Assembly (NCBI GenBank): GCA_944372415.1
Contig: CALVZA010000004.1
Coordinates: 1 to 38,867, forward strand
Length of the DNA: 38,867 nucleotides
Reading direction: 5' to 3'
Origin: an uncultured Bacilli bacterium
Lineage (GTDB): Bacteria; Bacillota_I; Bacilli_A; RF39; UBA660
Positions 450-4,032 of this stretch are shown piece by piece. The notes under the pieces were generated by a model. That model was not told the origin of the DNA, did not search any database, and saw only the letters and a list, made by a program, of their open reading frames with translations. The position numbers and the translations under genes are program-made. The number at the start of each line of letters is the position of its first letter. Positions within the stretch are counted from its first letter, which is position 1.

Positions 450-932
450 TTAAAGTTTTTTTATATTTGTATACATTCTTGAATGATATCCATTCTTTTC
501 ATAAAAATTAATAGCATTATCATTGTAAGCAAATACATCAACTAAAATGTACTCACAACCAACTGATTTAAAATATTCTTCAATTTTTAGCATCAGCATA
601 TTACCTATACCTTTACTTCTTACATTTTTAGAAACTACTAATTCAGTTATTTCACCTCTTTTAGGGCATTTATAATCTAAGTAATCATATTTATCATACG
701 GAAATATACATCCCATAATTAATCCTACAGCTTTATTATTATCAATTGCTATATAACATTTACCATTATTATTTTTAACTTCTTCTAAATCTAAAATTGC
801 CATTTTTCCTCTATATTCTGGATGTAGTTGATCTAAATTATCTTTATCAATTGATAGAATATATTCTTCAAGTTCAACTAATAAATCTTTTACATCTTCT
901 AAATATTTATCTTCATATTCTATTATTTGCAT
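450..932 (-). CDS. GNAT-family N-acetyltransferase
   Basis: A 160-residue GNAT acetyltransferase, expected to move an acetyl group from acetyl-CoA to an amine. The acetyl-CoA binding motif VRSKGIGNMLM (R-x-x-G-x-G/A) lies near residues 103-113, preceded by the strand ITELVV and followed by the C-terminal NAINFYEKNGY motif typical of the fold. The start overlaps the end of the upstream acetyltransferase by 20 bases. An AAGGAG site lies about 13 bases before the ATG, a little far, so coupling to the upstream gene is likely. It is the last gene of the attenuator-controlled cassette. The substrate cannot be read from sequence; antibiotic, polyamine and protein are all possible. The family is certain, the role is not. 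Confidence 0.85.
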   Translation of the reverse strand: MQIIEYEDKYLEDVKDLLVELEEYILSIDKDNLDQLHPEYRGKMAILDLEEVKNNNGKCYIAIDNNKAVGLIMGCIFPYDKYDYLDYKCPKRGEITELVVSKNVRSKGIGNMLMLKIEEYFKSVGCEYILVDVFAYNDNAINFYEKNGYHSRMYTNIKKL

Positions 933-1530
933 TATTAAAATAATACTCCTTAGTTAATCCATATTTAGAAAAAATTAATATTCCATCATAAAAAGTATAA
1001 GGTGACTCTTCTACTACTTCACCGATCTTATTAAATCCTAATTTTTCAAATATTCTACAAGATCCCATATTATCTTTTACAGCACCAGAAGAAATACCAT
1101 TTATTTCTACTTCTTTAAACATATAATCTATCATTGTTTTGGCAGCCTCTGTTGCATAACCATTTCCTTGATAAGCAGGGTCAATATACCAACCCACATC
1201 ACGAATAGTTATATCTTCTCCATTTTCTTGAGCAGATACCTGACCAATTACTTCTTCATAACCGCTATTCGTATATTCAGGTTTCAAAAATACACTCCAT
1301 ATAAACACATCATTATTATCTGCTTTTTCTACTTTAGATTTATAAAATTTTTCTTGATTCTCCCAAGTCCAGTGACTAGGATTATTAGCATGTTTTTTGG
1401 CACCTACCAAATACCATTTATTTACTTCTGGTATCATTAATATCTCCCATAATCTTTTTTGTTCTTCCATCTTAGAACTTCTTAATATCAATCTTTCAGT
1501 TTCTATTGTTTTACTTCCAATTAGCTTCAT
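913..1530 (-). CDS. RimJ/RimL-type GNAT N-acetyltransferase
   Basis: A 205-residue acetyltransferase of the RimJ/RimL type (Acetyltransf_3). It opens with the classical IETERLILR strand, carries the acetyl-CoA loop AYQGNGYATEAA near residues 118-129, and ends the core with GSCRIFEKLGF. The roughly 20 residues after the core (rich in Asn and Tyr) contain the overlap with the next gene. The ATG follows an AAAGGAATATG ribosome site. It lies 21 bases downstream of the deaminase gene and is presumably co-transcribed from the leader promoter near 2480. RimJ/RimL relatives acetylate ribosomal protein N-termini, but many family members inactivate antibiotics; the cassette setting favours a protective role (inference). 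Confidence 0.85.
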   Translation of the reverse strand: MKLIGSKTIETERLILRSSKMEEQKRLWEILMIPEVNKWYLVGAKKHANNPSHWTWENQEKFYKSKVEKADNNDVFIWSVFLKPEYTNSGYEEVIGQVSAQENGEDITIRDVGWYIDPAYQGNGYATEAAKTMIDYMFKEVEINGISSGAVKDNMGSCRIFEKLGFNKIGEVVEESPYTFYDGILIFSKYGLTKEYYFNNANNRI

Positions 1531-1551: not shown

Positions 1552-2307
1552 TTATACACGAGTTTTACCCCACCAATCAGGAATTAAGTCTTCTAATCTT
1601 ACTATTTCTTTAGTATCAATATTTTTTAGTATTTCAATATCCTTACTATTTTTAGAAAGTTGCATCATATATTCTCTACATGCTCCACAAGGTGAACCAA
1701 CATTACCTTTAGAGTCAACACATACTAGTTTCATAATTTCATTTTCACCATTTGTAATCATATTAGCAATAGCATTTCGTTCACCACACATACCAAGTGT
1801 TGATGCTGTATCAATGCATACTCCTGCATAAATATTATGATTTTTAGTAAGTATTGCTGCACCAACTTGTCCTGCACTAATCATACCTGACACATCTCTT
1901 GGATTTCTTACATTCTTAGCTTTTTCATATAATTCTTCCCAAATAGTGTTTTCACTATATAAATATTCTATATGAATAGCATATACACCATTTTTCTTAA
2001 TGGTATCTTCATATCCATCAAGTTTACTTACATTTCTAATAGCTTCTTCTTTATCATTGGTAGATGAAGTTGTGTATCTAGTTCCTTCTAAAGTAAAAAG
2101 TTCTTCTAATGAATCATAATGATTTACTTCTTTAACTTTAACATAAAATACACCTAAATCGTTACTAGTAAATTCTATAATATCATTTTGTTTTAATTTA
2201 CTATAATCATGCTCACTATTTTCTTTATTTGCTCTAATTTCTACTCTTTTAGTATTATTTTTGATAGCTAATGCAGCTCTATCATTAATATTTAATTTCA
2301 TTATCAT
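1552..2307 (-). CDS. ASCH domain-cytidine deaminase fusion, blasticidin-S-deaminase-like
   Basis: A 251-residue protein with two parts. Residues about 3-115 look like an ASCH/PUA-like domain (the AIKNNTKRVEIRA segment is the usual signature near the start). Residues about 120-245 are a zinc-dependent cytidine deaminase fold, with zinc ligands C174 (in the CGE motif, E176 the catalytic proton carrier) and C207/C210 in PCGACR. The first ligand is Cys, as in tetrameric cytidine deaminases and blasticidin-S deaminases, but CGE replaces the common CAE. AGGAGG lies 7 bases before the ATG at 2307. A terminator hairpin lies directly upstream of that ribosome site, so expression depends on transcriptional read-through. 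The likely substrate is a free nucleoside or a nucleoside antibiotic; which one is not visible. ASCH domains are linked to RNA contacts, so a nucleotide-level RNA role remains possible. Confidence 0.82.
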   Translation of the reverse strand: MIMKLNINDRAALAIKNNTKRVEIRANKENSEHDYSKLKQNDIIEFTSNDLGVFYVKVKEVNHYDSLEELFTLEGTRYTTSSTNDKEEAIRNVSKLDGYEDTIKKNGVYAIHIEYLYSENTIWEELYEKAKNVRNPRDVSGMISAGQVGAAILTKNHNIYAGVCIDTASTLGMCGERNAIANMITNGENEIMKLVCVDSKGNVGSPCGACREYMMQLSKNSKDIEILKNIDTKEIVRLEDLIPDWWGKTRV

Positions 2308-2324
2308 TTTAATATCCTCCTAAC

Positions 2325-2350
2325 AAAAAAATTCTGCATAATGCAGAATT
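2325..2350 (-). terminator. Attenuator terminator upstream of the deaminase gene
   Basis: On the minus strand, a 9-bp perfect stem AATTCTGCA/TGCAGAATT with a TTA loop is followed by a T run. It lies between the leader peptide and the AGGAGG site of the deaminase gene, so it would stop transcription before the operon. Confidence 0.85.
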
Positions 2351-2375
2351 AATTTTATAATCTAAAAGAATATTC

Positions 2376-2441
2376 CTAAAAGTTTAATATATTAGGAGTA
2401 GTGATTAATTCTGCATTATTAATAATCTGTAAATTTTTCAT
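2376..2441 (-). CDS. 21-residue attenuator leader peptide
   Basis: A short ORF reading MKNLQIINNAELITTPNILNF with an AAAGGAG site 10 bases before its ATG, about 30 bases after the predicted transcription start. Its codons 7-14 overlap the antiterminator strand, so translating ribosomes must affect the downstream fold. It has no run of one amino acid, so control by charged tRNA for one biosynthetic pathway is unlikely; drug-induced or general ribosome stalling fits better. Confidence 0.7.
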   Translation of the reverse strand: MKNLQIINNAELITTPNILNF

Positions 2442-2479
2442 CTTAATCACGCTCCTTTCTTTGAATAATTTACACCTAT

Positions 2480-2508
2480 AATATATCATATTTTAATCAT
2501 TTTGTAAA
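2480..2508 (-). promoter_or_regulatory. Promoter of the leader/deaminase operon
   Basis: Minus strand TTTACA (2503-2508), 17-base spacer, TATATT (2480-2485). Expected start near 2473, giving a leader RNA of about 150 nucleotides up to the attenuator. Confidence 0.7.
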
Positions 2509-2718: not shown

Positions 2719-3975
2719 TTAGACTACAAGGTGTATCGGTGTTACGCTTATTCCTTGGCCAAAAGACATAGTTGCTTGTTCCACTGGACCAATGTTATCA
2801 TATTTAAATAATATTCCAGAACTTTCACCATTTAAATCTATTCCAGTTTTAGAACCAAATCCAAAGTTTGTTATATAATTATATAATCTCTCAGTACCAA
2901 GTTTTTGCCCCATAACTACAAACCCTGGGTTACAAGAATTTTCCACAACTTGTAAAAAAGTTTGATCGCCGTGTCCTCCTTTTTTCCAACACTTTATTCT
3001 GGCATTTTCAACGTGAATAGAACCGCTATCATGAAAATGGTCATCAAAAATATTTATAGTTTTTTCCTCCAACGACGCAGCCAAAGTAATTATCTTAAAA
3101 GTGGAACCTGGTTCATAAGTTGCCCAAATAGGTAAATTTCGATTAATAGCATTTATATCATATTTCTGATAATTATTAGAATCAAAATTTGGACGAGATG
3201 ACATACCAAGTATTTCGCCTGTATTAGGATCTGCAACAACAATTAAAGCCTGTTCAGGAGAATATTTTGTCATTACATTATTAAGTTCCCTTTCAATAGC
3301 AAGTTGGATATCTAAATCAATTGTTAATGTAACATTTATTCCATTTTGAGGTTCAACATAGACCTCAGACCTATTTAATCTATTTCCTTTCCCATCACTA
3401 TAATATTTTATAGCGCCGCTTTTTCCAGTTAAATAATTATCATATTCATGTTCTATACCAGATAAACCTTGATTATCAATGCCAACATAGCCTAAAACAT
3501 GACTTAAAACATTTTTATATGGGTAATATCTCTTGCTTTCTTTAACTAAATAAACGCCGTCATAATTTAAATTATTAATTTTTTCTGCAATATCATAAGA
3601 TAATTGTCTTCCTTCTGGGTGTACTCTTTCTATACTTGTTTTTTTATTTACGTGTTCATACATTTCTTCATATTTAACATCTAATATATCTGCTAAATCT
3701 TTTGCTACTTTTTCTTTATCATTAATTTGATTTGGTATTAAAACCAAACTAACAGTAGTAATATTATTGGCTAAAACTTTCCCATTCCTATCTAAAATTA
3801 AGCCTCTATCTGCTGTAATTGGTAAATTTCTACTCCATAAATTATCTGCTAAATCATTTAGTTTATTATAATCAATAACTTGAATATAAAAAACTCTTAT
3901 AATTATTGCACTAAATATTACTAAAACTACTGCAAAAATAAATTTAATTCTACCGTGAATATCATCGACAAACAA
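2719..3975 (-). pseudogene. Class B penicillin-binding protein (SpoVD/Pbp2B type), C-terminally truncated
   Basis: Class B transpeptidases cross-link peptidoglycan from the outer face of the membrane. This one has a short cytoplasmic tail, one membrane anchor near residues 13-33, a dimerisation domain opened by the RGLILDRNG motif, and a transpeptidase domain with the active-site SxxK (STFK, S294 numbered from the upstream GTG) and SxN (SCN, S350). It stops after GQGISVTPIHLVV, exactly where relatives continue for another 100 or more residues holding the KTG motif. At about 420 residues it lacks a complete active site and should be inactive. An AGGTGAT site fits a TTG start at 3975 better than the GTG at 3984. 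The sequence after the break is not homologous continuation, so a deletion, recombination or insertion is more likely than a point mutation. Confidence 0.8.
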
Positions 3976-4032
3976 TTTTATCACCTAATTAATAATATTA
4001 ATTTTTAAAAAAAATATCAAAAATTTCTGATA

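Follow-up and report, generated by a model that had tools for sequence, protein, structure and literature searches.

A probable ribosome-dependent transcription attenuator with an anti-Shine-Dalgarno mimic in its leader reading frame, ahead of an ASCH-cytidine deaminase cassette of uncultured gut Bacilli

In the vmlR leader of Bacillus subtilis, a short uORF of three codons is combined with an anti-antiterminator, an antiterminator and an intrinsic terminator; a start-codon stall serves as the signal, and sequestration of the main Shine-Dalgarno (SD) sequence in SL-4 adds a second layer of control (PMC9226507). In the bmrB-bmrCD system of the same species, a translated leader peptide of 53 codons governs terminator read-through before resistance genes, here an ABC transporter, and the system is induced by ribosome drugs (PMC4191407). 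The rli80-hflXr leader of Listeria places a 14-codon uORF over an anti-antiterminator with alternative helices, and is induced by lincomycin and erythromycin (PMC6310831). In the toiL-topAI system of E. coli, a uORF senses several drug classes, including drugs that cause start-codon stalls (PMC12121999).

The window, i.e. the whole stretch of 38,867 nucleotides analysed here (contig CALVZA010000004.1 of an uncultured Bacilli bacterium, GCA_944372415.1), carries a leader that resembles these systems at positions 2325-2508 of its minus strand. It is like vmlR in its short ORF, its set of alternative elements, the start-codon stall proposed as its signal and the predicted masking of the main SD. 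With bmrB-bmrCD it would share a translated leader peptide governing read-through, and with rli80-hflXr a uORF over the anti-antiterminator. From the sequence analysis we consider it very probable that the leader is a ribosome-dependent transcription attenuator, switched ON by a stall at the first leader codons, before a cassette that probably inactivates antibiotics. Its parts and the genes that follow are listed below.

2480..2508, minus strand: promoter, TTTACA and TATATT at a spacing of 17 bp, extended -10 (consensus scan 10/12 with TG)
around 2473, minus strand: presumed transcription start
2452..2460, minus strand: leader SD AGAAAGGAG, complementary to the 16S 3' end GGATCACCTCCTTTCTA
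2443..2450, minus strand: arm 1 GTGATTAA, 5' strand of the anti-antiterminator P1, between SD and ATG, nearly invariant
2376..2441, minus strand: leader ORF MKNLQIINNAELITTPNILNF, 21 codons and a stop
2404..2419, minus strand: arm 2 ATAATGCAGAATTAAT, 5' strand of the antiterminator, inside the leader ORF from +23, supported by covariation
2395..2408, minus strand: 3' strand of P1, TTAATCAC (2401-2408) plus CTCC (2395-2398), the 16S anti-SD mimic
2338..2353, minus strand: arm 3 ATTAATTCTGCATTAT, 3' strand of the antiterminator and 5' strand of the terminator, supported by covariation
2325..2350, minus strand: intrinsic terminator predicted from sequence, 9-bp stem (2330-2350), loop of 3, T run
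2316..2321, minus strand: gene 1 SD AGGAGG, predicted to be masked by pairing when the terminator forms and largely accessible when the antiterminator does
1552..2307, minus strand: gene 1, ASCH-like domain (residues ~1-118) and cytidine-deaminase domain (~119-251; PF00383 and NCBIfam PRK05578 above cut-off)
913..1530, minus strand: gene 2, GNAT acetyltransferase (Acetyltransf_3 domain match)
450..932, minus strand: gene 3, GNAT acetyltransferase (Acetyltransf_1 domain match)

A preliminary description of this region had claimed three mutually exclusive pairings, of 8 bp, 16 bp and 9 bp with a T run, between a 21-codon leader ORF and the first gene. All three are present on the minus strand, and the ORF is found at 2441-2376. 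In P1, GTGATTAA (2450-2443) pairs with TTAATCAC (2408-2401) over 8 bp; this first helix had been described correctly except that its extension was missed, in which GGAG of the leader SD pairs with CTCC (2398-2395) for four extra pairs. The antiterminator is formed by ATAATGCAGAATTAAT (2419-2404) and ATTAATTCTGCATTAT (2353-2338) over 16 bp, and its 5' strand lies within the leader ORF, as had been claimed. The terminator is formed by arm 3 pairing with ATGCAGAATT (arm 4) over 9 bp; behind this stem comes T5, with a total of seven T. Among 1000 dinucleotide shuffles, none gave a Watson-Crick duplex longer than 14 bp, versus the 16 bp observed, and the fold has a z-score of -2.8, with 1/200 shuffles at least as stable. 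Most relatives carry the same promoter elements upstream of the leader. A possible promoter operator, the inverted arms TAATTTACA/TGTAAATTA at -35 and +1, was rejected, the arms being lost in relatives with TTGACA.

The first helix involves the leader's own SD region. AGAAAGGAG, one base and then GTGAT make up the extended SD of the leader, AGAAAGGAG-N-GTGAT, which comprises the SD and arm 1 and is an almost complete complement of the 16S 3' end GGATCACCTCCTTTCTA. It should be mentioned that the 16S 3' end was read from a genome of the same family, because a search of the genome that contains the window yielded no 16S gene. Since SD and arm 1 complement the 16S end, the other strand of P1, AATCAC..CTCC, mimics the 16S anti-SD. 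This strand lies within the leader ORF and overlaps arm 2. Binding of the 30S subunit and formation of P1 would be mutually exclusive.

We propose the following mechanism. In the resting state, the extended SD of the leader would pair with the anti-SD mimic inside the leader ORF. The resulting P1 would mask the 3' part of arm 2, so that newly made arm 3 pairs with arm 4 to give the terminator; a ribosome travelling through arm 2 would likewise not stand in the way of the terminator. If a ribosome stalls with its P site at codons 1-3, however, it would cover arm 1 and leave arm 2, past its leading edge, exposed. The exposed arm 2 could then capture arm 3, such that no terminator forms and the gene 1 SD is freed as well. 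The parts, their conservation, their covariation and their geometry are documented at the level of sequence; the leader ORF is presumably translated and termination presumably occurs at the predicted stem.

A scan for gene 1 in about 85,000 genomes gave 32 loci with the two-domain architecture, whole or cut by a contig end, all in metagenome-assembled genomes and most labelled Bacilli. The leader lies directly 5' of gene 1 in 26 of these 32 homologous loci (designated by L numbers), some of them near-identical to one another; locus counts are thus not counts of independent events, some relatives being near-copies of each other. L026, which is cut by a contig end, is not among the 26. At L019 the leader precedes other genes of the gene 1 cassette, and L014, L032 and L033 are fusion loci without the leader. 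L011 (2090-2200) has a natural deletion, bounded by two GCAGAATT repeats, in which the leader has lost its middle and its terminator. The leader ORF lacks its end as a result, and its start is left in frame with gene 1. L011 is probably a constitutive or fusion variant.

A covariance model detected the leader in 25/386 genomes of the family and 29/385 of the order. With a second model of broader scope, the design was also recognized at L149 to L153, which belong to two other families of the class. The scores of L149 to L153 are weak (E 0.0004 to 0.008), with leader ORF, P1, antiterminator and terminator seen on inspection; in four other weak matches, L135, L147, L154 and L155, the design was absent on inspection. 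The arrangement is present in dozens of gut Bacilli genomes, and a leader search of viral contigs and plasmids gave no match. Loss of the ORF and of the complementary arms in relatives had been named as evidence against an attenuator; tested here, both turned out to be conserved, with an intact, SD-preceded ORF of 18-24 codons in each of the 43 leaders examined.

The peptide itself bears on amino-acid attenuation, in which the leader would sense a shortage of charged tRNA in the style of trp or ilv leaders. A starvation stall at codons 2-3 (Lys, Asn) would likewise switch the leader ON in the folding model described below, and MKNLQ is nearly invariant among the 28 closest leaders. However, the leader sequences have no run of codons for a single amino acid, as the preliminary description had pointed out, the divergent leaders share only Met plus frequent Lys or Asn, and the cargo is not biosynthetic. 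We regard amino-acid attenuation as very unlikely.

Covariation, one of the checks that had been proposed, was found in all three helices. The 26 close leaders changed little; an alignment of 24 diverse leaders was used. In this set the antiterminator shows two-sided compensatory changes at 12/16 pairs, in 24 cells; shuffles gave means of 4.0 pairs and 4.6 cells, and 0/500 were as high as observed. The antiterminator strands pair in 88% of cases, and when the partner strand is displaced by one, two or three columns, pairing falls to 27-50%. The terminator has two-sided changes at 6 of the 7 pairs counted. It follows that arms 2, 3 and 4 vary in concert, as in GCAGAATTA/TAATTCTGC of the window and its counterpart GCAAGATTA/TAATCTTGC of L145. 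In P1, 96.5% of cells are paired and the changes are mostly G-U wobbles, as expected if the 16S rRNA fixes arm 1. With the leader conserved and covariation present in all three helices, we judge the observation to be real.

Mutually exclusive helices with a terminator are also typical of riboswitches, and the leader might in principle bind a metabolite or a drug directly. However, a search of Rfam gave no match for the feature at the gathering threshold or at E up to 1, no conserved unpaired core is present outside the ORF, the SD and the arms, and the placement of the arms is set by the ribosome footprint. A ligand-binding riboswitch is so improbable that we give it almost no weight.

Arm 2 begins at +19 to +41 of the leader ORF in 42/43 leaders and never closer, the start being at 19-26 in 37 leaders and at 32-41 in five with longer ORF starts; at L134 the automatic search picked P1 and found no antiterminator. 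On vmlR of B. subtilis, the leading edge of the initiating ribosome gives a toeprint at +16 (PMC9226507). In the folding of ten leaders, the ribosome was represented by a block of about 30 bases around the P-site codon. For the window, the antiterminator probability is 0.97 with the P site at codons 1-3, and the terminator probability is at least 0.97 with the P site at codons 5-15. Most of the nine relatives modelled show the same dependence on ribosome position. The ON zone is narrower in L151 (codon 1 only) and in L120 and L148 (codons 1-2). Switching is half complete in L030, L133 attains 0.53-0.60, and no switch is seen in the model of L145; L145 and L134 are divergent members, and both fit poorly. 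With a ribosome near the stop (codons 17-21 in the window), antitermination is also predicted, as it is in most leaders. The earlier idea that ribosome position decides read-through is therefore supported by the covariation, the distance of the arms from the start codon and the folding model, with the refinement that it is the start-codon region that is read in the model, codons 1-3 being the clear ON positions.

Ribosome-free equilibrium folding favours the terminator in all nine relatives, at 0.75-1.00 (at least 0.94 in seven), and gives the leader of the window an antiterminator probability of 0.96 at the decision point. As the window favours the antiterminator when ribosome-free, its OFF state must rely on early P1 formation or on translation. 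P1 may form first and mask those bases of arm 2 with which the start of arm 3 would have to pair, and so hold the window OFF kinetically. The pairing probability of the gene 1 SD in the window is 0.99 in the terminator state versus 0.15 in the antiterminator state, and it is lower in the antiterminator state in 12/12 leaders folded.

The genes behind the leader had been described as a deaminase-acetyltransferase cassette. The cytidine-deaminase domain and the two GNATs are confirmed, and gene 1 is further recognized as an ASCH-deaminase fusion. By sequence, the ASCH match (PF04266) is weak, with a Pfam E of 0.002 that is below the cut-off. In the AlphaFold model of gene 1 (pLDDT 90), the N-terminal part adopts an ASCH fold; the TM score by target length is 0.91 against PH0355 and 0.83 against cytidine deaminases, and PH0355 and PF0455 are the solved structures nearest to the ASCH part. 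The deaminase zinc ligands C174, C207 and C210, the catalytic Glu176 and P206 are invariant in 24 proteins. In the ASCH part, Lys20 and Arg25 are invariant. YqfB, an N4-acylcytidine amidohydrolase, is likewise an ASCH-domain protein and its Lys and Arg positions are kept; unlike YqfB, gene 1 is fused to a cytidine deaminase and has Glu in place of the catalytic Thr (PMC6972931), the Thr24 position being Glu23 in nearly all members. The Lys-Thr-Glu triad of a YqfB-type enzyme is thus not present, and without the Thr nucleophile N4-acylcytidine amidohydrolase activity is unsupported for this domain.

Several relatives of the two domains were observed apart from the intact fusion. The fusion gene is broken between ASCH and deaminase by an in-frame stop or frameshift at L008 (4001-4756) and L084 (122 and 110 aa). 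Within the same family, L103, L104 and L107-L110 carry relatives of either domain, ASCH or deaminase, on its own, and a gene 3-like GNAT is near those of L103, L104 and L109. The stand-alone deaminases of L035-L083, mostly from Clostridia, are about 60-70% identical to the deaminase domain. Their gene neighbourhoods are not conserved, which gives them the look of mobile accessory genes rather than a housekeeping cdd.

A more specific proposal is that cytosine-nucleoside antibiotics such as amicetin and blasticidin S are both inducer and substrate, with either the ASCH domain or the deaminase stripping or deaminating N4 and the GNATs acetylating. The deaminase domain is complete and has the cytidine/blasticidin S deaminase fold; enzymes of the tetrameric cytidine deaminase group attack N4-acyl cytidines and confer blasticidin S resistance (PMC9897663), and inhibitors of the PTC and nucleoside inhibitors stall ribosomes after initiation with little dependence on context (PMC10201436). 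In addition, a Lactobacillus amylovorus plasmid (L163; NC_017472.1 42870-55258) encodes an unannotated deaminase of 43% identity near MFS, NUDIX and ABC-F ribosome-protection-like genes. Against this stand the absence of the YqfB nucleophile from the ASCH part, the aminoglycoside-type enzymes in other cassettes, and the sequence scores, in which cytidine deaminase chains outscore blasticidin S deaminase by far; the two folds are alike and specificity is unreadable from sequence. We regard cytosine nucleosides in this double role as plausible but on balance unlikely.

The cargo varies considerably among relatives. The genes after the fusion encode GNAT, transglutaminase-like, second ASCH, NUDIX or AAA proteins. 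The leader family also precedes fusion-free cassettes, namely a GNAT at L130, a P-loop kinase, methyltransferase and kinase-like set at L133, an APH kinase with a transglutaminase-like tail at L134, and P-loop kinases with weak similarity to the Gar/GrdA gentamicin resistance proteins at L145 and L148; none of the enzymes of these five cassettes scored above a curated resistance cut-off. In other families, GNAT-type genes stand behind the same design at L149 and L153. The leaders of L130, L134, L145, L148, L149 and L153 have other peptides, arms and terminators. As a separate observation, L150-L152, from another Bacilli family, carry the design ahead of a protein with an ABC-ATPase-like P-loop domain. 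Judged by resemblance, the common theme of the cargo is the modification of small molecules, mostly of antibiotic-resistance kinds. PADLOC gave no match for an anti-phage role, and the full-length fusion was absent from the plasmids and phages searched.

Translation inhibitors are the presumed natural inducers because of this cargo and of the known systems vmlR (PMC9226507), bmrCD (PMC4191407), hflXr (PMC6310831) and cplR (PMC10201436); the enzymes would inactivate such drugs. The lack of an arrest motif together with the varied cargo favours a general early-stall sensor. The switch could even be a generic sensor of translation stress, opened whenever early elongation slows or the ribosome is defective, and with an inducer unlinked to the cargo. 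The absence of a conserved arrest motif and the design common to very different cargoes are consistent with this, toiL answers several drug classes (PMC12121999), and vmlR answers ribosome assembly defects (PMC9226507). Nothing speaks directly against such a sensor, which overlaps with the drug-responsive attenuator favoured here and differs from it in specificity only; we hold it to be a real, if tentative, possibility.

The cassette of the window is 90-94% identical to those of several relatives, while identity in the 1.5 kb of upstream flank is 66-83%, or no match is obtained at all. For L007 the cassette is 92% identical and the flank has no match; for L015 the values are 90% and mostly 66%. 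Horizontal exchange of the cassette would be the simplest reading of these alignments. L004 and L005 have the cassette in common and diverge abruptly about 15 bases before the promoter, and the left edge of the moving unit is probably at about 2515-2525 in the window and 60-75 in L005. Just upstream of the cassette, at 2719-3984 of the window, is a penicillin-binding-protein-like gene that seems truncated past the transpeptidase motif; in L006 and L015, ORFs of equal length (421-422 aa) are likewise located upstream of the cassette.

In its widest form, the proposal is that the leader belongs to a class of start-codon-stall sensors of uncultured gut Bacilli that is portable and independent of the cargo, with the anti-SD copy in the ORF as the anti-antiterminator, and that it controls a new inducible ASCH-cytidine deaminase resistance enzyme against peptidyl-nucleoside or other ribosome-targeting antibiotics of the animal gut. 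Taken as a whole this is a conjecture that we consider somewhat doubtful. If right, the leader would flag drug-inducible genes in uncultured bacteria without the enzyme being known beforehand, and the ASCH-deaminase fusion, the GNATs and the APH-like and Gar-like kinases would be candidate gut resistance genes. It would also give a simple recipe for an early-stall sensor, consisting of an anti-SD mimic and an antiterminator strand placed just past the footprint of the initiating ribosome.

The attenuation principle is already known, and the leader of the window is a variation on the vmlR/bmrCD/hflXr design; enzymes of the kinds found here are not known to be under such control. In the open-access papers searched we found no description of this leader family, of an anti-SD mimic in the ORF as anti-antiterminator, of its spread over unrelated modifying enzymes, or of the ASCH-deaminase fusion. 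The toiL-topAI system acts on translation and Rho without an intrinsic terminator, unlike the window (PMC12121999), and the rli80-hflXr peptide has an RLR arrest motif, whereas the window leader has none (PMC6310831). Compared by description, bmrB-bmrCD differs in the length of its leader and in its transporter cargo (PMC4191407). The three-codon uORF of vmlR contrasts with the 21-codon ORF here, and its cargo is an ABC-F protein in place of modifying enzymes; the vmlR SD is single-stranded before SL-1, whereas the leader SD in the window forms one side of the anti-antiterminator. In a further departure from vmlR, the window has its antiterminator strand inside the leader ORF (PMC9226507).
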